64,000 nt of DNA from Pelagihabitans pacificus (GTDB lineage Bacteria > Bacteroidota > Bacteroidia > Flavobacteriales > Flavobacteriaceae), in the NCBI RefSeq assembly GCF_009371985.2, contig NZ_VIKU02000004.1:248001-312000 (forward strand), written 5' to 3'. This document shows, one piece after another, positions 30,676-39,952 of this stretch (positions are counted from its first letter, which is position 1; each line of letters begins with the position of its first letter). Made by a program: the position numbers and the translations under genes. A model generated the notes under the pieces. It saw nothing but the letters and a program-made list of their open reading frames with translations. It had not been told where the DNA came from and ran no database searches.

Positions 30676-31521
30676 TCATAAGGGTCTCGCAACCATAATT
30701 CCGGTATTCTTTTTAATACCTTTCAAATAGTCGGCCAACGGACGTTTGGATACCTCGACCTGCATCGACCCGGTAGAAGCATGCAACAAATGGATACGCC
30801 CATCCTTTTCGCGGGTAGCGATGCCGGTGTGGGTGATGTCGAGTCCGTCGACAGCGGTCGTCAAAGCAATAATATCCCCTGATCGGATCAAATGCTCGTT
30901 GGCTTCGATTTGGTCTTGGGGTAGTATACAAAGGGCCTGGTTATTTAGATACTCTTCGGAGACTTGTATTTTTTTGAAGTTCTCCTCGTCCTCTTTTAAA
31001 AAGGGGTACAACTCCCGATGGGTACTCATAAAGTTGATTTCTTTGGTGATTTCGGTACCCCCAATTTCCGAGGTAACATCCTTCAGTACGCCTTTGGCCT
31101 CGTTGTTGGCGATCCATTCCGAAAAATAGTGCAGACGTGAAGCATAGCCATCCAGGTTGCCATCCTTGTAGCGAATACGTTCCAAGGTCTCGGTAAAGGT
31201 ATCAAAGTCGGACTTCCCCTCCCTCAACAACAAACTAAAGGCAAGTACGTTTTCAACATAGGTGGTACAATCCAACCCATGAAGGTTAATGACCAAGGAT
31301 TCCGTTTCGCCCACTTCCAATGTTTTGGCAACATAGGGGGTTTCCAAGAAGGTCTTCCCGACGGCCACAATCGTTTTTCCAAAATTATCTTCCAGCAGTC
31401 CGTCGATTTCGATGGTCTTGTCCTCAAAAGCTTGCCTATCCTTTAATGAGCAGACGATGTCTTGGGCAAATCCTATCTGAAAGCAGGTTACTAATAAGAT
31501 CAGTGTCTGATAGTGCCTCAT
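30676..31521 (-). CDS. DUF1460 (NlpC/P60-fold, amidase-like) exported protein
   Basis: Exported 281-aa protein with signal peptide 1-19 (ends FQIGFAQ). The pattern FLETPYVAKTLE, then LHGLDCTTYVENVLAFSLLL with Cys near residue 85, is the DUF1460 hallmark. HTGIATREKDGRIHLLHAS further on holds the His of the Cys-His active site. Proteins of this family are thought to be N-acetylmuramoyl-L-alanine-amidase-like, acting on cell-wall material or related amides. It converges with thuA (34 bp between stops). Substrate unproven. Confidence 0.8.
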   Translation of the reverse strand: MRHYQTLILLVTCFQIGFAQDIVCSLKDRQAFEDKTIEIDGLLEDNFGKTIVAVGKTFLETPYVAKTLEVGETESLVINLHGLDCTTYVENVLAFSLLLREGKSDFDTFTETLERIRYKDGNLDGYASRLHYFSEWIANNEAKGVLKDVTSEIGGTEITKEINFMSTHRELYPFLKEDEENFKKIQVSEEYLNNQALCILPQDQIEANEHLIRSGDIIALTTAVDGLDITHTGIATREKDGRIHLLHASTGSMQVEVSKRPLADYLKGIKKNTGIMVARPL

Positions 31522-31864: not shown

Positions 31865-33208
31865 ATGGCCGATGATTTTGATTTATTAGAAACCGATTCC
31901 AACTCCAAGCAAGAACAAGTTGATGTCAATTGGGGAAAGACGGTCGACCAAATGAAGTCTAAACTTGCCCAGGAAGACGACCCCGAGATACGACAGAAAA
32001 TATTGAACGCGACCCTAGACGATGTGGTAGGGATGGCCGAAAAAGACCGTGCTACCCTATTGGATGCCATAAAAGACCTAACGGACTATCAGGATGAGGT
32101 CGGGATTATCTTTGAAAAGTTTTCCACCTTGAACGCTGCAGAGCAAAAGGTGATAGATGATGCACAGAACGCATTGGACCGGGCCAAACAGGAATTGGAA
32201 GAAGCCGAAAAGGTCAAGGATAACTGGTGGAACAACCTTTGGGGACGTAAATCAAAGATAAAGAAACGACAAGCGGAACTGGATGCCGCCCAAAAGGTAC
32301 GGGACGGGGCCGATTTGAAAGCCAAGGCGATGTTTCAGGAACGAATTGAGTCGGCCGATATACAGACCTTGTTGAACGAACTTTCCTATAAAAGTCAGGC
32401 AGCAGTGGGCCGCCTAAAAAATCGGGAAGTCGAAATTAAAGAGGTCGAGGACAAACTGCAGGTCGCTATCGTAGAGGCCAGTAAAAATCATACAAAAGCA
32501 CTCGAACGAAAAAAGGAAACCGAAGAGAAGCTGGAAGAGCAATATGCGCTTCTCAAACAGGCGAGGCAAACACTGGAGGAAATTTCCGATAAGCAGTCCT
32601 CCGAGTATTCCGAGGCAATCGGTAAAGTAACCCAAATCGAACAGAAGGTCGAGGAGTTGGAGGGCCTCAAAAACGCCTATACCACCTTGGCGGCCAGTAA
32701 GGACAGTTTTGTACATAAACACAACCTTACCATTAAGGTACTGACCTCCTTGCGAAGCAATCTGCAATCGCACCGGGCGAAACTAAAAAGTGATACCGAT
32801 GAGCGGTTGAAATATTATGATGGTTATGTTGTGGCCTTGAAGGCAAGGACCGATCAGGAATTTGCCGCTATCCTGGAGCACTTGGGTGTGAAGACCGATG
32901 AACATATCGGCCAGACCTTGGCCGCGATGCATACGGCCAGTGCCAAGGCGAGACAGGAGATGATGGACAATATTCCGGTGCACGAAAAAGTAATGCAGGG
33001 GGTGTACTCGAGCTATGCCGAATCGCTGCAGGAAATACGGGTCAAGGATGCCGAAATACAAAAGAACTTCGCCGATCGCTACGGTATCGATATGAAGGAA
33101 ATCTTCGAGGAATACTATGCGACCGATGGCAATGCACCGGCCGATGGTGGCGGTGACGATACCCCTATGCCCCCGAAACCCTCGGTCGAAGACGACTTAC
33201 TGAGTTAG
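31865..33208 (+). CDS. Long coiled-coil protein, first gene of the AAA+ operon
   Basis: Cytoplasmic protein of 447 aa, no signal or membrane helix. Residues 1-85 are acidic (MADDFDLLETDS at the start). From about residue 90 to 340 heptad-rich helices dominate, interrupted by a Trp patch (DNWWNNLWGRKSK, near 121-133). The segment 265-400 remains helical (LTSLRSNLQSHRAKL, QEFAAILEHLGVKTDEH). The tail is Gly/Pro/Asp-rich and ends VEDDLLS. I do not recognise the family; resemblance to TelA-type or PspA/ESCRT-III-type coiled coils is only general. Being followed by a AAA+ gene, it could be the polymer or substrate on which that ATPase works. 184 bp separates it from the next gene, more than elsewhere in the operon. 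Confidence 0.8.
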   Translation: MADDFDLLETDSNSKQEQVDVNWGKTVDQMKSKLAQEDDPEIRQKILNATLDDVVGMAEKDRATLLDAIKDLTDYQDEVGIIFEKFSTLNAAEQKVIDDAQNALDRAKQELEEAEKVKDNWWNNLWGRKSKIKKRQAELDAAQKVRDGADLKAKAMFQERIESADIQTLLNELSYKSQAAVGRLKNREVEIKEVEDKLQVAIVEASKNHTKALERKKETEEKLEEQYALLKQARQTLEEISDKQSSEYSEAIGKVTQIEQKVEELEGLKNAYTTLAASKDSFVHKHNLTIKVLTSLRSNLQSHRAKLKSDTDERLKYYDGYVVALKARTDQEFAAILEHLGVKTDEHIGQTLAAMHTASAKARQEMMDNIPVHEKVMQGVYSSYAESLQEIRVKDAEIQKNFADRYGIDMKEIFEEYYATDGNAPADGGGDDTPMPPKPSVEDDLLS

Positions 33209-33392
33209 GGCAGTAGCGTTTTCTATGATGGTGGTCACCGGGATATGTGTACGCTCTTGTCTATGTACCTATTGTTGGGTGGGAAGGGTATCTACGGAAA
33301 CCCGTGTGTGATGACCCCCATCGGTTTTGGGCACCATTTCTATTCGTGTAATGATACGAACAAACCAAAAAACGACTTAAAAGTCAATTCCA

Positions 33393-34457
33393 ATGTCGAT
33401 TAACCAAATAGTCACTCCTTTGGATAGTGCTGTTCTTGAGACCAAAGAACAGTATAAGGTGTATTTTAAAATTGTGACGCACGCTTTTGAGGAATTGGTG
33501 AAAAGTATCGCCGACAAACGCTTGTGCAGCGAGATCGAGGCCAATTTCGTAAAACAATACTGCGAACTGATTACCTATTCTTTGGAGGCTTTTCGCATCA
33601 AGTACCTCTATGACGACGAGGAAAAAATGCGGATCGACTTGACCGAATCTGGTTTCCCGAACTATCTGGAATTTCGCTACTTGTACAACGATTTGGAATT
33701 GAGGCAACAGCACATTGGTAAGTTGCCGAAGGTAGAGGAACTAAAGCAGGAGTTCTTGGATACCCTGCTCAAAAACAAACGACCCATTCCGGAGCGTCGG
33801 TTACAGCAGGCAGCATCGATTATCTATTATTCGTCGGTGGAGCGACAGTATATTTTCAAACGTTTTGTACAGGGTAAGATCGTGGAGCTGGGCAATAACG
33901 CGGAAGCTCCTTATTTAATTAGTTGGGCGTTCTACGACGTTACCCATAACCGGCCCTTCATCTGCTTCATGTATTTTGATCTGTACAAAGAAAAGCTGGA
34001 GGCCTATCGCCAACGGATTTATCAAGTATTGGAACAGACCGCCGACCGCAATATGGACCTCGATATGATGGCTTATGCCATTGACAAAAGATTACCCAAA
34101 CTCTTGCCGAAAAAAATCCGCAAGATCGATTTGGGACCGTTGCACAATGTATTTGCCAAAGATGAGCTAATTGTTACCCACACCGTTTTGGAGGCGATAA
34201 TCAAGAAAACACTCGACCTCTCCGCTTTCGCGGTTTCGTTGCGTATGGATGAAACAGTTTCCACAGGGGATTTTGCCGAGGGGAATTTTTTTAGCAAACA
34301 ATACCTGCAAGTCTGGGCACCTACCAAAGTCAGTACCTATTTATTGGCCCCGCATCGGGTCATTCAGGTTTTCTATGATAACATACCCGAGGCCTTACAT
34401 GAATTAACACAGGAACCGATTGAAATTTCGGCCTTAAAATTACAAAATGGAGCATAA
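33393..34457 (+). CDS. Unknown soluble protein, second gene of the AAA+ operon
   Basis: A 354-aa protein with no signal, membrane helix or recognised motif. It is mostly helical, with many aromatic residues in the first half (for example NYLEFRYLYNDLELRQ near 89-104) and a mixed alpha/beta second half that ends with a beta-rich part (QVWAPTKVSTYLLAPHRVIQVFY). A basic patch, KRLPKLLPKKIRKIDLGP, sits around residues 229-246. The stop overlaps the AAA+ start by 11 bp, so it is translationally coupled and likely works in the same complex. No function can be named. Confidence 0.8.
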   Translation: MSINQIVTPLDSAVLETKEQYKVYFKIVTHAFEELVKSIADKRLCSEIEANFVKQYCELITYSLEAFRIKYLYDDEEKMRIDLTESGFPNYLEFRYLYNDLELRQQHIGKLPKVEELKQEFLDTLLKNKRPIPERRLQQAASIIYYSSVERQYIFKRFVQGKIVELGNNAEAPYLISWAFYDVTHNRPFICFMYFDLYKEKLEAYRQRIYQVLEQTADRNMDLDMMAYAIDKRLPKLLPKKIRKIDLGPLHNVFAKDELIVTHTVLEAIIKKTLDLSAFAVSLRMDETVSTGDFAEGNFFSKQYLQVWAPTKVSTYLLAPHRVIQVFYDNIPEALHELTQEPIEISALKLQNGA

Positions 34458-36411
34458 CAGTACTTTTCCAATAAAGCTAAACGAATTGGAAGCCCTTCGC
34501 AACGAGGCTACCTCTTATCTGAAGGGGGTGCAGTGGGAACAGGGAGGAAAGGCAAAAAGCCGTGACAAAGACCAGAAAGACAGTTCTATTCTATTGTATC
34601 TCTCCAAGGCGAATGGCACTGCGGCCAATGAAGTCATCTCGGTCTCCAAGACCATCCTTTCCCTAAAAAAAAGGCTGTTACCCGATTCCGTTGCCATTCC
34701 GGTACACTTAAACCAAGCGCTTTATTCCCTGCAAGAGGGTCTCACGATGGGTATTTGGCTAAAAGACAGTTATTACGACGCTTCAGGGCTTTCTTCCCTG
34801 AACGAACGAAAGAGCACCTTGGACAACTCGCAACGTCGGGAATATGATTCCAAGCTACAAACTGCCACTGCTTTTATGCTCTATGGCATCGCATACCGCA
34901 TTTTGTACGATTTGAAACCCATGGTCTCCGACGACCTAAGCGTCATGAAGAACAAATTTGCCGGTATTCCCGAGGTTTCCCTGATGTCGCCACTCAAGGG
35001 TGTTTCGTGTATGCTATTCTATTTCGATAAGTACTTGGGCCATCCCGAAATTATTACCTCCGATGAAGAGGTACTGCATTTTACGGTGGTGTATTTCGAA
35101 GCGCTAATTGCTGAGATACAGATGCGCATCAACAGCCTGGAATATACCGAAACCATCACCGATCGTACCTACAAGCTTGAAAAAAGTGAATTTGCCGTTT
35201 CAGGCTGGGAGAATGTTTTGGAAGGAACCGCCAAAAGTGTTGAGTTCAATAAAATTCAATTTGAGGAAATTGTGGGCAATCGGGATGCCAAACATTTCGC
35301 ACGCAGATTAACGGAGCGTATGCTGAGCTACGATTTTGTAGCCAAGAAGAATCCCTTTCAGGAATTAGGTGGTTTTATGCCTGTATTTATGGGCTATGGC
35401 ATTCCTGGAACAGGTAAAAGTATGCTAATCGCGGCCATTGCGACCCGACTCAAGGAGCATTGTGATGAATTGGAGATTCCATTTCTGTTCCATCCCATGC
35501 CAGATACCTTGATATCGACCTTTCAAGGAGGTTCGGCCGAGAAAATGGTACAATGGATGAAGCCCTTACAAGACCCGAGTAGGCTCATTTTTGCGCCGAT
35601 AGACGATGCGGAGAACAATTTACAGGAACGTACCGCACAAGGAGTATCCGCCGGGGTTAAGGAAGTAATCGGGGTATTTTTGCGTTATACCGAAGGGGCC
35701 TATGCCATAAATTATGGCAACAGCTCTATCGGACTTTTTACCAACCTGCCCGAAATGTTGGACAAGGCGGTCATATCCCGTGTGCAAGGACGTTTCAAAA
35801 TCGATGGCGCCCGGACCATTCCCGATTTTGTCGACCAGGACTACCTCTGGTGGCGTAAGCTGAACGACAGCATGCCAAACTTCGTTAACATGAAAAACCC
35901 GGAGAAATACGAGTTCCTGAGTGAGCAGGGTCTTGCCAAAAACTTAGGGGAAATTCTCGACCAATCCGATAAGCCGACCGAAGAAAAGGTCTTGGAGATT
36001 TACGAACAGACCGAGGCGAAGTACAAAACGGACACGCATTTATTTTTTGCAGAACTCTACAAAAACATTCAAAAGGCCTTCCCTTTCTTTTCTTCAAGGG
36101 ACATTCGAAACATTCAGAGTGCCATTTCATTACGGCTCACCGATTTCGATTTGCCGGAAGCGTGGTTCACCGATGCCTCGTTGTACTTTAAGAAAGACTA
36201 CGATACCAAGTTTGCCATGTTGCAAGAACTGATGAAGCAGAATATGAAAGGGCTCGATTTTTCGGATATCCGAAGGCAAGAAGTAGTAAGGTATCTCGAT
36301 AATGTGGCCACCATTGCGGACACCGACTTTAAACGGAAGGTCGAGAGTCGGGTGCACGACATGAACGTAAACCTGGAAGCTAACCGCATTTTTGAAAACG
36401 GGGGAAGATAA
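34447..36411 (+). CDS. AAA+ ATPase of an uncharacterised operon
   Basis: Cytoplasmic ATPase of 654 aa. Residues 1-250 are a helical N-terminal region without a known fold. The AAA+ core follows: Walker A GIPGTGKS (318-325, Lys324), Walker B RLIFAPIDDAEN with Asp386/Asp387 then Ala-Glu389, sensor-1 TNLP (432-435), and SRVQGRF with arginines placed for an arginine finger. The Walker B reads D-D rather than the usual D-E; Glu389 is two residues on. Residues 500-654 form a helical lid and tail. No protease, DNA-binding or zinc motif is fused. The gene sits between two unknown soluble proteins with overlapping or near-overlapping ends. This is the likely engine of the operon. Confidence 0.88.
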   Translation: MEHNSTFPIKLNELEALRNEATSYLKGVQWEQGGKAKSRDKDQKDSSILLYLSKANGTAANEVISVSKTILSLKKRLLPDSVAIPVHLNQALYSLQEGLTMGIWLKDSYYDASGLSSLNERKSTLDNSQRREYDSKLQTATAFMLYGIAYRILYDLKPMVSDDLSVMKNKFAGIPEVSLMSPLKGVSCMLFYFDKYLGHPEIITSDEEVLHFTVVYFEALIAEIQMRINSLEYTETITDRTYKLEKSEFAVSGWENVLEGTAKSVEFNKIQFEEIVGNRDAKHFARRLTERMLSYDFVAKKNPFQELGGFMPVFMGYGIPGTGKSMLIAAIATRLKEHCDELEIPFLFHPMPDTLISTFQGGSAEKMVQWMKPLQDPSRLIFAPIDDAENNLQERTAQGVSAGVKEVIGVFLRYTEGAYAINYGNSSIGLFTNLPEMLDKAVISRVQGRFKIDGARTIPDFVDQDYLWWRKLNDSMPNFVNMKNPEKYEFLSEQGLAKNLGEILDQSDKPTEEKVLEIYEQTEAKYKTDTHLFFAELYKNIQKAFPFFSSRDIRNIQSAISLRLTDFDLPEAWFTDASLYFKKDYDTKFAMLQELMKQNMKGLDFSDIRRQEVVRYLDNVATIADTDFKRKVESRVHDMNVNLEANRIFENGGR

Positions 36412-36414
36412 ATT

Positions 36415-37665
36415 ATGGACAAACTGAAGGAAGCAGGATTGATCGATGGGGCCTTGGTGGCGCTTTCCGGCTCCTTGGTGGTACGCTACAATGAATGTTT
36501 GGCCCTGTTGGGTGTGAAACCCACAAAACTAAAACAGTTTTCCATCGATGGCATGGGTTGGAGCAAGGAGGTCGCTGTCGAGAAGAAAAACAATTGGTAT
36601 TTGAATACAGGCGAGGCGAACGTCAACGCCATCGTATTATCACCAGACCAAAACGGAAAGCCGGTGCACATGCCTTCGCACAGTTTCGACCGGGACGTGA
36701 TGACCGCTGTATTCGCTGCCTATGGTAGGGAAATCAAGGATATCACCAAAGACGCTGCGCTGATCGTGCATTTAGATCAGAGTATCGATACCTTTTTCGA
36801 TCCCTTTGACCTCTTGCGCTACGATACTATTACGGTGCGCTTTACGCTACTGAACAAACTGCATGAGAAGCAACAGGAACAACGTGCCCTAATCCAATGG
36901 TTCAATCGTAAAAACAACTTTATCGATCGGGAGGTGCACAAGAAGTTATTGGAATCCGCCAAAAAATATGGGGACCTTCGAAAGCGAAAATTGGACTTGG
37001 ATCCCATTACCTTGCCGGTCAACTCTTTTTACACCCGAGCCTTTGGAGGGGTTTTTGTGCTAAAGGATTTTATAGAGACTATCTTGGTATTTGAGGATGG
37101 GAAGTGGTTCAAAAAGGCCACCAATGATACCGCGCACGAAGTACTGCTGTTTCATGTAAGCCATGATGAATTGATAGAGACCTTAGTGCGTCATTTAGTA
37201 TTGGAAAGCAACTTGAAAAGTTCGGTTCGTAGCTCGCGCTATGAGCGTATTAAAAAGCATTTGTTTTCCGAAGAGCTGACCAAAAAAGAGCATTCCATCA
37301 AAGAAATATTGGAGAACAAGTTATTGTTCAAAAAATATTTGGACCAAATGCCCTTGGAGGTCAAGAAAAAGATATCGGGTACGGAGATCTATTTCCAACG
37401 CCTCATCGTAGACCGGTCGTTGAAGCTTGAAGAGTTTGTCGATACTGCCTATCGAAAAGCGTTGCATCGACCGCATTCCTCTTTGTTGGAAGAGCAGAAA
37501 GAGCTGATATGGAAGCTTTTGGCAAAGATCATGCCCAAAGATCCCCTACATTTATATTGGTATGACAAAGAGGCTTTTTACAAAGCCTATGAAACCTGGG
37601 ACCCTACCTATCAGGAGTGGGTCATCGAGGATATTTTAAGGAACAATAACAATCAACCATCATGA
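36415..37665 (+). CDS. Unknown soluble protein, fourth gene of the AAA+ operon
   Basis: A 416-aa protein starting 3 bp after the AAA+ stop. No signal peptide, membrane helix or catalytic motif is seen. The first 140 residues are alpha/beta (LKEAGLIDGALVALSGSLVV, then NAIVLSPDQNGKPVHMPSHSF), and the remainder is strongly helical and basic, with many Lys/Arg/Glu pairs (EVKKKISGTEIYFQRLIVD). A tryptophan/tyrosine-rich end (LYWYDKEAFYKAYETWDP) may be a binding face. The stop overlaps the next start (ATGA). Family unknown to me. Confidence 0.8.
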   Translation: MDKLKEAGLIDGALVALSGSLVVRYNECLALLGVKPTKLKQFSIDGMGWSKEVAVEKKNNWYLNTGEANVNAIVLSPDQNGKPVHMPSHSFDRDVMTAVFAAYGREIKDITKDAALIVHLDQSIDTFFDPFDLLRYDTITVRFTLLNKLHEKQQEQRALIQWFNRKNNFIDREVHKKLLESAKKYGDLRKRKLDLDPITLPVNSFYTRAFGGVFVLKDFIETILVFEDGKWFKKATNDTAHEVLLFHVSHDELIETLVRHLVLESNLKSSVRSSRYERIKKHLFSEELTKKEHSIKEILENKLLFKKYLDQMPLEVKKKISGTEIYFQRLIVDRSLKLEEFVDTAYRKALHRPHSSLLEEQKELIWKLLAKIMPKDPLHLYWYDKEAFYKAYETWDPTYQEWVIEDILRNNNNQPS

Positions 37666-38195
37666 CATTAGAAATCATCGTATTTGTACTAGCCATCCTT
37701 TTTGGGATTGTATGGTATTGGAGGGAGTCAAAAAATAATAAGCTATACCGACTGGCCAATAAAATTACCCACTCCAAGGAGTTGCAAATGAAGCCCGACA
37801 ATAAAAAAGGGTTTGTACATCAACAGAATTTCCTGTTACGTTTGGTATGGATAACGTTTCTTTTCGTGATGGCTTCGGCCATCATCACCTTTCTCATTCC
37901 AATTAATTTATTTTTTATACAGCTCTTCGCTTCGGCTATCGTTGGCACATTGATCGGAACGTATATCGCGTCCGGGTTTATATTGGCCCAGGACAGAACG
38001 AGTAAGGAAAATCTGGAGAAAGTGTTTGACAAAGGTAAAGAGCTTTTAGAGGATTTGACGGACGGTAATGAAACGGAAGCGGCAGAACAAAAGTTGGAGG
38101 AAACCCCTGAACCGGAAAAATTGGAATCAAATCCGGAACCCGAACAACCCAAATCGGCAAGAGATCGTTTAAGGGACAAGGGAATGATAAAATAG
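37662..38195 (+). CDS. Small membrane protein, fifth gene of the AAA+ operon
   Basis: A 177-aa membrane protein. Helix 1 is residues 4-19 (IIVFVLAILFGIVWYW), and helices 2 and 3 are about 57-76 and 79-106 (FIQLFASAIVGTLIGTYIASGF). The C-terminal 65 residues are acidic and proline-rich (repeated PEPE) and end in a basic motif, ARDRLRDKGMIK. That tail may be the docking site for the soluble components of the operon. The start overlaps the preceding stop by four bases. No family is recognised. Confidence 0.75.
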   Translation: MTLEIIVFVLAILFGIVWYWRESKNNKLYRLANKITHSKELQMKPDNKKGFVHQQNFLLRLVWITFLFVMASAIITFLIPINLFFIQLFASAIVGTLIGTYIASGFILAQDRTSKENLEKVFDKGKELLEDLTDGNETEAAEQKLEETPEPEKLESNPEPEQPKSARDRLRDKGMIK

Positions 38196-38222
38196 TAGAC
38201 AGTAATGAATACGAAGTAATCG

Positions 38223-38261
38223 GTAGTTGGTATCTGATACTTTATACGCTGTACTAACTAC
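38223..38261. repeat. Inverted repeat between the last two AAA+ operon genes
   Basis: GTAGTTGGTA (38223-38232) pairs with TACTAACTAC (38252-38261) with one G-T pair and a 19-nt loop. The whole 83-bp spacer is rich in TAGTA/TACTA words. It could be an RNA-processing or stability hairpin that sets the ratio of the two membrane proteins. Confidence 0.35.
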
Positions 38262-38278
38262 TAAATACTAAAAGAAAC

Positions 38279-39952
38279 ATGATCAAAACATACTGGCAAA
38301 AGGGAAAAAAGCAAAAACGCATCCTCGTAGTAATAGGGATCATCGTGTTGGGACTATTATTTTTCCTTAGGGATGATTACCAACCAGCCTTGCTTTTTCT
38401 TCGGAAATATATTTTCATTATCCTCCTTTCAGCAGGATTCCTTTGGTTCACACTCTTCAAGTTTCGAGGTGCCGCAAGCGCTGGTAAACGGATACTGATC
38501 TTAGTCGGAATCGTGGCTTTCTTCACCACCCTTTGGTTTTTTGGATGGAAACTGAGCTTGTACCAATACATGCAGACGTATAACGTGTACAAAAATTTAG
38601 ATTTGGTAGAACTTCAGGAATTACCACTCACCCAAAATGAACGGATACAGCCTTTCAATAACATCGTGACCATGGCCTATGAATCCATTGGGGAAACTCA
38701 GGAAGTATCGCTGCCTCAGTTGGTTCGACTGGATGGTAGTAATCAATGGACGATGGCCGTACAGCCTGCCAAGGAATATACCTGGCAACGTATCAATGAC
38801 AATACCGAGGAAGTGTTCACCGTGGAGAGTACCTCCCCGTTCCCGCGATTTTCGAACGAAAATCGCATTCCGGTTACTTTTTCGATCGGGGAGTCATTGG
38901 CATTCAGTCGCAATACCTATAATGCCGTGGTACAGCGTTTCAATCTCTTTCAATTGTTTACGCTGGAGCCCAGCGATGTATTCTATATGAAGAACGATCA
39001 GGACCAATGGGTACAGGTCGTGAATCTCATTAAATGGAAGGGATTTTTCTTCCCGTATCCGACCTATGGGGGCGTAATGGTCATCGAGGCTGGCGAGCAC
39101 GATTTTAACGATTATCTGGAAAGGGTCACCATTGGTAAGGGTACCTATATTCAACAATCCGAAATCAAAAATTATCCGTACTTGAAGGGGCAAAATACGT
39201 TGGCGGAAAAAATTTCCAGAATCCAGGCCCAATCATTGCAGTTTTTGGGAGGGTTTACCGACCCCCTTCCCTGGAACATGAAAACAGCGGTTAAAATACC
39301 CGAACTACCCGAAGACCAAAATCAGCAACCCTATGTCACCGACTTCAACTTCGAGGGAATGAAAGTGGATGCTTTCGACGGACTCTACCACTGGTTCGGT
39401 CTGGAACCTATTGGGGACGAGCGAACAAGTCTTGCCTTTAGCGTACTGATACCAGCCGATGGCACCGACAAACTCTATTATTACAATCATTCCGCAAAAA
39501 AGGAGGGCTTTGCAGGGGTGTCGGCCATGCCGCTAAAGGTAATCGAATCACGGAAAGAATACGATTGGTCTGCCAACAAACCCGTGGAGTTTCGCCCCTT
39601 CATAAAAAAGATTGCCGGTAGAAAAAGATTGTTCGTGCTCGGTACGGTTGCTGCGGTTCGCGATAGTAGTAAACAGTTCGATGGGGCCGCTACCCCGGAT
39701 TTGGCACTAGTGGATGCCGAATATCGCGATGTTATCTGGATCGATGCCAAGCACCCCTCGCAGTGGACCAGTACCATTTTACATCAGTTGGGTGAAACTT
39801 GGAAGGCATCGGAACGCCTGACGGATGCGGATCTTTATCCCGACAAATCCGATAGCGATATGAACCCGTTGCAAGAGCTGGACAGTGTTCAAGGCGATAC
39901 CATTAACACGACCCAGTCGGAAGTGGTTCTTGATAGTTTGGGAGCCAACTAA
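38279..39952 (+). CDS. Membrane protein with large soluble domain, last gene of the AAA+ operon
   Basis: A 557-aa protein. Three membrane helices are at residues 14-30 (RILVVIGIIVLGLLFFL), 41-60 and 71-93. The remaining 460 residues are one soluble beta-rich domain with no recognised motif, on the outer face of the membrane if the N-terminus is inside as its basic residues (WQKGKKQKR) suggest. Notable patches are WTMAVQPAKEYTWQ, GFFFPYPTYGGVMVI and KPVEFRPFIKK. It follows the fifth gene by 83 bp and ends the operon; the neighbour is on the other strand. It probably connects the cytoplasmic ATPase complex with the envelope, by inference only. Confidence 0.78.
   Translation: MIKTYWQKGKKQKRILVVIGIIVLGLLFFLRDDYQPALLFLRKYIFIILLSAGFLWFTLFKFRGAASAGKRILILVGIVAFFTTLWFFGWKLSLYQYMQTYNVYKNLDLVELQELPLTQNERIQPFNNIVTMAYESIGETQEVSLPQLVRLDGSNQWTMAVQPAKEYTWQRINDNTEEVFTVESTSPFPRFSNENRIPVTFSIGESLAFSRNTYNAVVQRFNLFQLFTLEPSDVFYMKNDQDQWVQVVNLIKWKGFFFPYPTYGGVMVIEAGEHDFNDYLERVTIGKGTYIQQSEIKNYPYLKGQNTLAEKISRIQAQSLQFLGGFTDPLPWNMKTAVKIPELPEDQNQQPYVTDFNFEGMKVDAFDGLYHWFGLEPIGDERTSLAFSVLIPADGTDKLYYYNHSAKKEGFAGVSAMPLKVIESRKEYDWSANKPVEFRPFIKKIAGRKRLFVLGTVAAVRDSSKQFDGAATPDLALVDAEYRDVIWIDAKHPSQWTSTILHQLGETWKASERLTDADLYPDKSDSDMNPLQELDSVQGDTINTTQSEVVLDSLGAN

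Follow-up and report, generated by a model that had tools for sequence, protein, structure and literature searches.

The closest described systems to the locus analysed here are Vps4/ESCRT-III (CdvC/CdvB in archaea), the PSP system built on PspA/Vipp1, and Pch2/TRIP13 with its HORMA clients. The locus lies in a window of 64,000 nucleotides, the whole stretch of DNA that was analysed, in which six open reading frames on the + strand, labelled A to F here, span positions 31865-39952. Like Vps4/ESCRT-III, it places the gene of a single-domain classical AAA ATPase with an aromatic pore loop (C) beside that of a helical partner (A). Unlike Vps4/ESCRT-III, C was found without an MIT domain, A has no ESCRT-III/Snf7 match, there are two extra soluble proteins (B and D), and the Walker B motif carries Asp for Glu. 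With the PSP system it shares a helical protein proposed at the inner membrane and membrane-protein neighbours, whereas A matches no PspA model, the block is without PspB, PspC, PspF and Toastrack-type genes, and C is not an NtrC-type ATPase. As for Pch2/TRIP13, the rhizobial homologue of C matches the PADLOC TRIP13 model over the AAA domain, but no HORMA match was found in A, B or D with Pfam, and the block lacks CBASS genes. Passages of a PSP survey (PMC11237479) and of an ESCRT survey (PMC10936438) deal with other associations of AAA+ and PspA/Snf7 proteins, not with this gene set. The parts are of known kinds (a classical AAA ATPase, a coiled coil and membrane anchors); their combination is, as far as we found, undescribed.

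Our main reading, to which we give a probability of roughly 0.45, is that the block encodes an undescribed AAA+ remodelling system, in which the threading ATPase C would remodel or disassemble a membrane-peripheral assembly of A, with E and F as inner-membrane anchors.

Layout and conservation of the six-gene block

The six + strand genes with small gaps and overlaps, as described in the first-pass annotation, were reproduced to the base: 184 bp separate A from B, B and C overlap by 11 bp, C and D are 3 bp apart, D and E overlap by 4 bp, and 83 bp lie between E and F. Gene A (31865-33208, +) encodes an elongated helical (coiled-coil) protein of 447 aa, and gene B (33393-34457, +) a soluble protein of 354 aa, neither belonging to a family. 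Gene C (34447-36411, +) specifies a 654-aa classical AAA ATPase, whose single AAA domain at about residues 265-460 is bordered by unfamiliar N- and C-terminal regions; it is single-copy in the source genome (4.56 Mb, 22 contigs). Gene D (36415-37665, +) encodes a soluble protein of 416 aa. The last two genes do encode membrane proteins, as had been proposed, each with three hydrophobic segments: E (37662-38195, +; 177 aa) adds an acidic tail, and F (38279-39952, +; 557 aa) carries its segments at the N-terminus, ahead of a large C-terminal domain. Divergent from the operon, at 30676-31521 on the - strand of the window, lies a gene for an AmiA-like N-acetylmuramoyl-L-alanine amidase (PF07313), which only some of the loci have in this position. 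Upstream of A, 11 of 75 loci have the flavobacterial promoter motif TAnnTTTG, vs 14 in shuffles, so the motif is not enriched.

With C as the query, a scan of GTDB species genomes gave 242 relatives, of which the best 80 were kept, nearly all of them labelled as Flavobacteriaceae or genera thereof. Among these best 80 of 242, the genes present always follow the order A-B-C-D-E-F on a single strand, in all 74 complete loci as well as in the six that are incomplete on short contigs, and no locus is rearranged; the distance from A to F ranges from 7.1 to 10.8 kb. Since the flanking genes vary between loci, with the upstream amidase common to only a subset, the six-gene block is the unit. In a survey of 397 Flavobacteriaceae genomes, where C was counted only as strong matches (E below 1e-100), the 114 genomes (29%) that have A are exactly those that have C. 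F is found in 115, sharing 112 with A and C, and the assemblies of the two genomes with A and C but no F are incomplete (73% and 79%). The co-occurrence of A and F gives a hypergeometric ln P of -212, a value that ignores shared ancestry. Dispersal of the genes in relatives, which would have spoken against an operon, was not found, with one clear exception to the clustering: in the single-contig genome G380, F lies ~850 kb away from A and C. Order and co-occurrence together show that the six genes are a real unit, acting together.

In three further Flavobacteriaceae genomes (G442, G445 and G555), F occurs at 63-66% identity with neither A nor C present; the assemblies of G445 and G555 are incomplete, and that of G442 is 99% complete. 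Some lineages have extra genes between the operon members, the order remaining unbroken. In Psychroserpens/Algibacter-type lineages a NUDIX hydrolase gene stands between C and D (L053:10955-11539, Pfam E 1e-12), which the window does not have, and similar ORFs occupy the same place in L047, L049, L050, L056, L057, L059, L060, L066, L070, L073, L076, L077, L079, L080 and L081. Genes for small four-helix proteins of the 23S rRNA-intervening-sequence type have also been inserted repeatedly, one of them (L051:8573-8932) being a PF05635 member; such ORFs lie in the B-C gap of L051, L072, L074, L080 and L081 and in the D-E gap of L051, L061 and L079.

The patchy presence of the block, in 29% of the sampled Flavobacteriaceae, and the unrelated genes inserted in some loci would both suit an anti-phage defence operon with a TRIP13/IetA-like ATPase. 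C indeed matches IetA weakly (E 1e-4), and rhizobial C matches PADLOC TRIP13 (E 1e-5). However, both matches are limited to the AAA domain, PADLOC finds no match for A, B, D, E or F, and the block is single-copy without a recognisable sensor or effector. Specifically, no HORMA and no CBASS cyclase or effector match was obtained in the six proteins or in the Proteobacterial set, and Pfam gave neither an IetS protease partner nor any other protease in the block. Median identities in the best 80 of 242 relatives are 85% for A, 82% for C, 72% for F, 62% for B, 58% for D and 55% for E; for A and C the identities in these loci run from 78 to 94% and peak within the genus, unlike fast-changing defence genes. 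We consider a defence role improbable. Searched phage records gave no match, and a 395-genome sample across the phylum contained no C outside Flavobacteriaceae, all carriers being of this one family.

The ATPase C and the helical protein A

C belongs to the Pfam AAA family (PF00004) with 35.1 bits vs a cut-off of 21.2, and rhizobial C reaches 41.8 bits. Among solved structures, C is nearest to VCP/Cdc48, Pch2/TRIP13, Vps4, the proteasomal Rpt subunits and FtsH; VCP, Pch2/TRIP13, Vps4 and FtsH are all substrate-remodelling ATPases. We aligned the motifs of 29 C sequences from two phyla. The first-pass annotation had listed an intact Walker A lysine, Walker B, sensor 1 and arginine finger; the lysine (Lys324, codon 35416-35418, +) as well as sensor 1 N433 and the arginines R445 and R449 (35743-35793, +) are invariant in the 29 sequences, but Walker B is not canonical. 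At D386-D387 (35602-35607, +), aligned to the D-E of a VCP-like ATPase, all 29 sequences have I-D-D, with Asp for the usual catalytic Glu; the Pfam AAA membership is independent of Walker B Asp-Glu. This substitution suggests that ATP hydrolysis by C may be slow or regulated. Pore loop 1 (ISTFQG with the aromatic F359; 35512-35529, +) aligns to KYYG/KWVG of a VCP-like ATPase and reads [FY]-Q-G in 29/29, with Y in Proteobacteria. These features suggest that C is a polypeptide-threading AAA ring, which would grip its substrate via aromatic pore loops. The arginine spacing A441-xxx-R445-xxx-R449 resembles that of Vps4/katanin-type ATPases, which we take as a lead only.

For A, the earlier reading as a coiled coil agrees with the AlphaFold model, which predicts helices at residues 40-85, 91-116, 128-163, 166-239 and 246-326 with pLDDT mostly 70-90 and low-confidence ends. 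A has no hydrophobic segment. Three short features stand out in its Flavobacteriaceae homologues. The N-terminal motif M[AS]DDFDLLET (31865-31894, +) keeps FDLLET in 73 of 74 sequences. Between two predicted helices, the aromatic/basic loop W121-K129, WWNNLWGRK (32225-32251, +), is conserved as WNNL[WF]GRK in 74/74, and may be a membrane- or partner-contact site. Past a variable Pro-rich linker, the C-terminal tail motif [ED]DDLL[SG] (33188-33205, +) is found in 71/74, and is a possible recognition tag. In Proteobacterial A, both tails are missing, including FDLLET, and the loop is different, so tails and loop cannot be universal recognition features.

A true PSP/ESCRT system, in which A would be a divergent PspA or ESCRT-III homologue and C its Vps4, was the kinship suggested by the pairing of a classical AAA ATPase with a helical partner, by the presence of Vps4 among the relatives of C, and by a source genome in which profile search found no PspA_IM30 (PF04012; matched in 9 of 14 control genomes). 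The sequence of A argues against it: no PspA_IM30 or Snf7 profile matched at E<=1 in Pfam, and a PDB profile search with A gave nothing significant. No MIT-type N-terminal domain was reported in C by Pfam. We regard this reading as very improbable. Among the matches listed by Foldseek and VIA-align for the predicted model of A there is no PspA/ESCRT-III chain, which proves nothing either way. TelA (PF05816) had no match in A or in the genome, and PDB profile searches with B, D and F gave nothing significant. The PspF/PspA pair, which had been offered as a model beside Vps4/ESCRT-III, compares poorly with this locus, since PspF activates transcription. A genome without PspA would have a place for another system, but this proves nothing.

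The matches listed for the A model are general helical proteins (alpha-pore-forming proteins, F-BAR, SMC, chemoreceptors), with Z values usual for helical bundles and no indication of function. The top VIA-align rows, MakA, AhlB/AhlC and ClyA at Z ~12-13, could be taken to mean that A forms pores or is injected, in the manner of MakA/ClyA, with the ATPase serving its export. Yet values up to ~13 are usual for helical bundles, the identity is 6-12%, BAR domains, SMC and chemoreceptor coiled coils rank close behind, and A is without a hydrophobic segment; we give this explanation hardly any credence.

An A-B-C-D core in Pseudomonadota and the membrane proteins

A tblastn search of a plasmid collection with C and D returned C homologues at 27-32% identity in replicons of Sinorhizobium, Shinella, Rhizobium leguminosarum and Vibrio; the spread across phyla is based on these plasmid-collection records, some of them chromosome-sized replicons. 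In the Sinorhizobium, Shinella, Rhizobium and Vibrio neighbourhoods A-B-C-D stand in unchanged order, the homologue of B directly upstream of C and that of A two upstream of it. Profile comparison with the Proteobacterial counterparts gave a probability of 99.2 for B (E 2e-19), and hhalign one of 99.9 for D (E 1e-35). For A the comparison gave 96.5 (E 1e-9), and since coiled coils inflate such scores, the homology of A is argued as well from where the gene stands and from a shared segment around K306-LxxDTxxR...LK...Q..A. The first-pass annotation had seen no familiar motif in the five partner proteins, which must be corrected for D: it is a member of DUF6638 (PF20343; 93.2 bits vs a cut-off of 27, E = 2e-26). 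This membership holds in both phyla, and PF20343 was found in none of the 14 control genomes.

E and F were found in Flavobacteriaceae loci only. In Sinorhizobium and Shinella a membrane protein with two predicted TM segments follows D, and in S. meliloti it matches DUF2333 (PF10095); F is not detectably related to DUF2333-type proteins (hhalign E 0.29). In Vibrio, mfd comes after D and no membrane protein stands beside the module, and in the R. leguminosarum locus none adjoins D. Since the A-B-C-D order is common to both phyla and E/F are confined to Flavobacteriaceae loci, these four genes form the core, and the membrane proteins differ from lineage to lineage. It follows that E and F cannot be essential to the core activity, and the view of the membrane proteins as an integral part of the machine does not hold beyond the family. 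On this distribution of homologues, the core is older than the family Flavobacteriaceae.

The main rival to the proposed remodelling of A by C has to be weighed at this point, namely a chaperone that assists the assembly or quality control of an envelope complex. C would then act on F, E or D instead of A, with E or F the expected client, and A would be a scaffold positioning the ATPase. F is well conserved (median 72%) and nearly always accompanies A and C, and Sinorhizobium and Shinella likewise add a membrane protein after D. The Proteobacterial loci, however, keep A-B-C-D together without E and F, so that E/F cannot be the general client of C. We judge the chaperone reading unlikely, though worth keeping in view.

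In the Vibrio replicons, the gene two upstream of A (L089:8380-9219) weakly matches a Tus-type model of replication-terminus binding (E 1e-3).

Proposed remodelling of A by C and its wider context

In the remodelling reading, C would form a hexamer and pull on A, perhaps via the conserved acidic Leu-Leu tails, and this pulling would disassemble or reshape an assembly of A at the cytoplasmic face of the inner membrane. B and D would be soluble partners, adaptors or regulators. E and F would anchor the A assembly, and if the C-terminal domain of F is periplasmic, F would link it to the envelope; the AlphaFold model of F (mean pLDDT 50) is unusable. The mode of action would resemble that of Vps4 on ESCRT-III or of Pch2/TRIP13 on its clients, without membership in either system. 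We take A as the candidate client of C because the two are neighbours across phyla, are conserved to a similar degree, and A has conserved tails in Flavobacteriaceae; its placement at the inner face of the membrane is suggested by the aromatic/basic loop together with E and F. That the purpose is envelope remodelling or repair is a guess.

In favour of this reading we count the standing of A and C as the most conserved members, the conserved loop and tails of A, the motifs of C (a pore loop with an aromatic residue, sensor 1 and the pair of arginines) with its substrate-remodelling relatives, the identical order and strand, the co-occurrence, and the A-B-C-D core in Pseudomonadota. On the same side we count that E and F are membrane proteins and that Sinorhizobium and Shinella have a DUF2333-type protein with two TM segments. 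Against it we count the absent tails and different loop of Proteobacterial A, the non-canonical Walker B, the unusable model of F, and the Vibrio and R. leguminosarum loci with no membrane protein adjoining D. The first-pass annotation had arrived at a membrane-associated machine in which the ATPase acts on the coiled coil; what stands of it is a single unit with an ATPase of threading-ring signature, a helical partner and two membrane proteins, while the kinship to PspA/ESCRT-III is not supported, no profile having matched at E<=1. Nor did profile searches place the genes in any described system.

A bolder version, which we think rather doubtful, is that a membrane-remodelling machine arose here independently of PspA/ESCRT-III: a non-homologous helical protein on the inner membrane would be turned over by a classical AAA ATPase and held by exchangeable envelope anchors, E/F in Flavobacteriaceae and the DUF2333-type protein in Sinorhizobium and Shinella. 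If the ATPase does act on the helical protein at the membrane, bacteria such as the source organism, in whose genome no PspA is recognisable, would have their own counterpart of ESCRT-type remodelling. The block is carried by ~29% of the sampled Flavobacteriaceae, its core is common to Vibrio and rhizobia, and we found no description of its function. DUF6638, and in some lineages DUF2333, is tied to one ATPase, so that all of them would be annotated by the same experiments.

No paper that we found mentions DUF6638 or DUF6384, and DUF2333 is mentioned once, as uncharacterised (PMC5256989). Pseudomonas PA1766-PA1769, a lead for a possible DUF2333 operon, was rejected, as papers describe it as a set of ATP-grasp and membrane proteins with a predicted role in modifying proteins of the cell wall. 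In one S. meliloti strain, C and D are separated by an endonuclease-domain gene and an ISRm16 transposase (L091:13914-15659). SMc02733 may be a gene of the S. meliloti locus, which is a guess. One S. meliloti paper reports that SMc02733 holds a ChvI-bound fragment.
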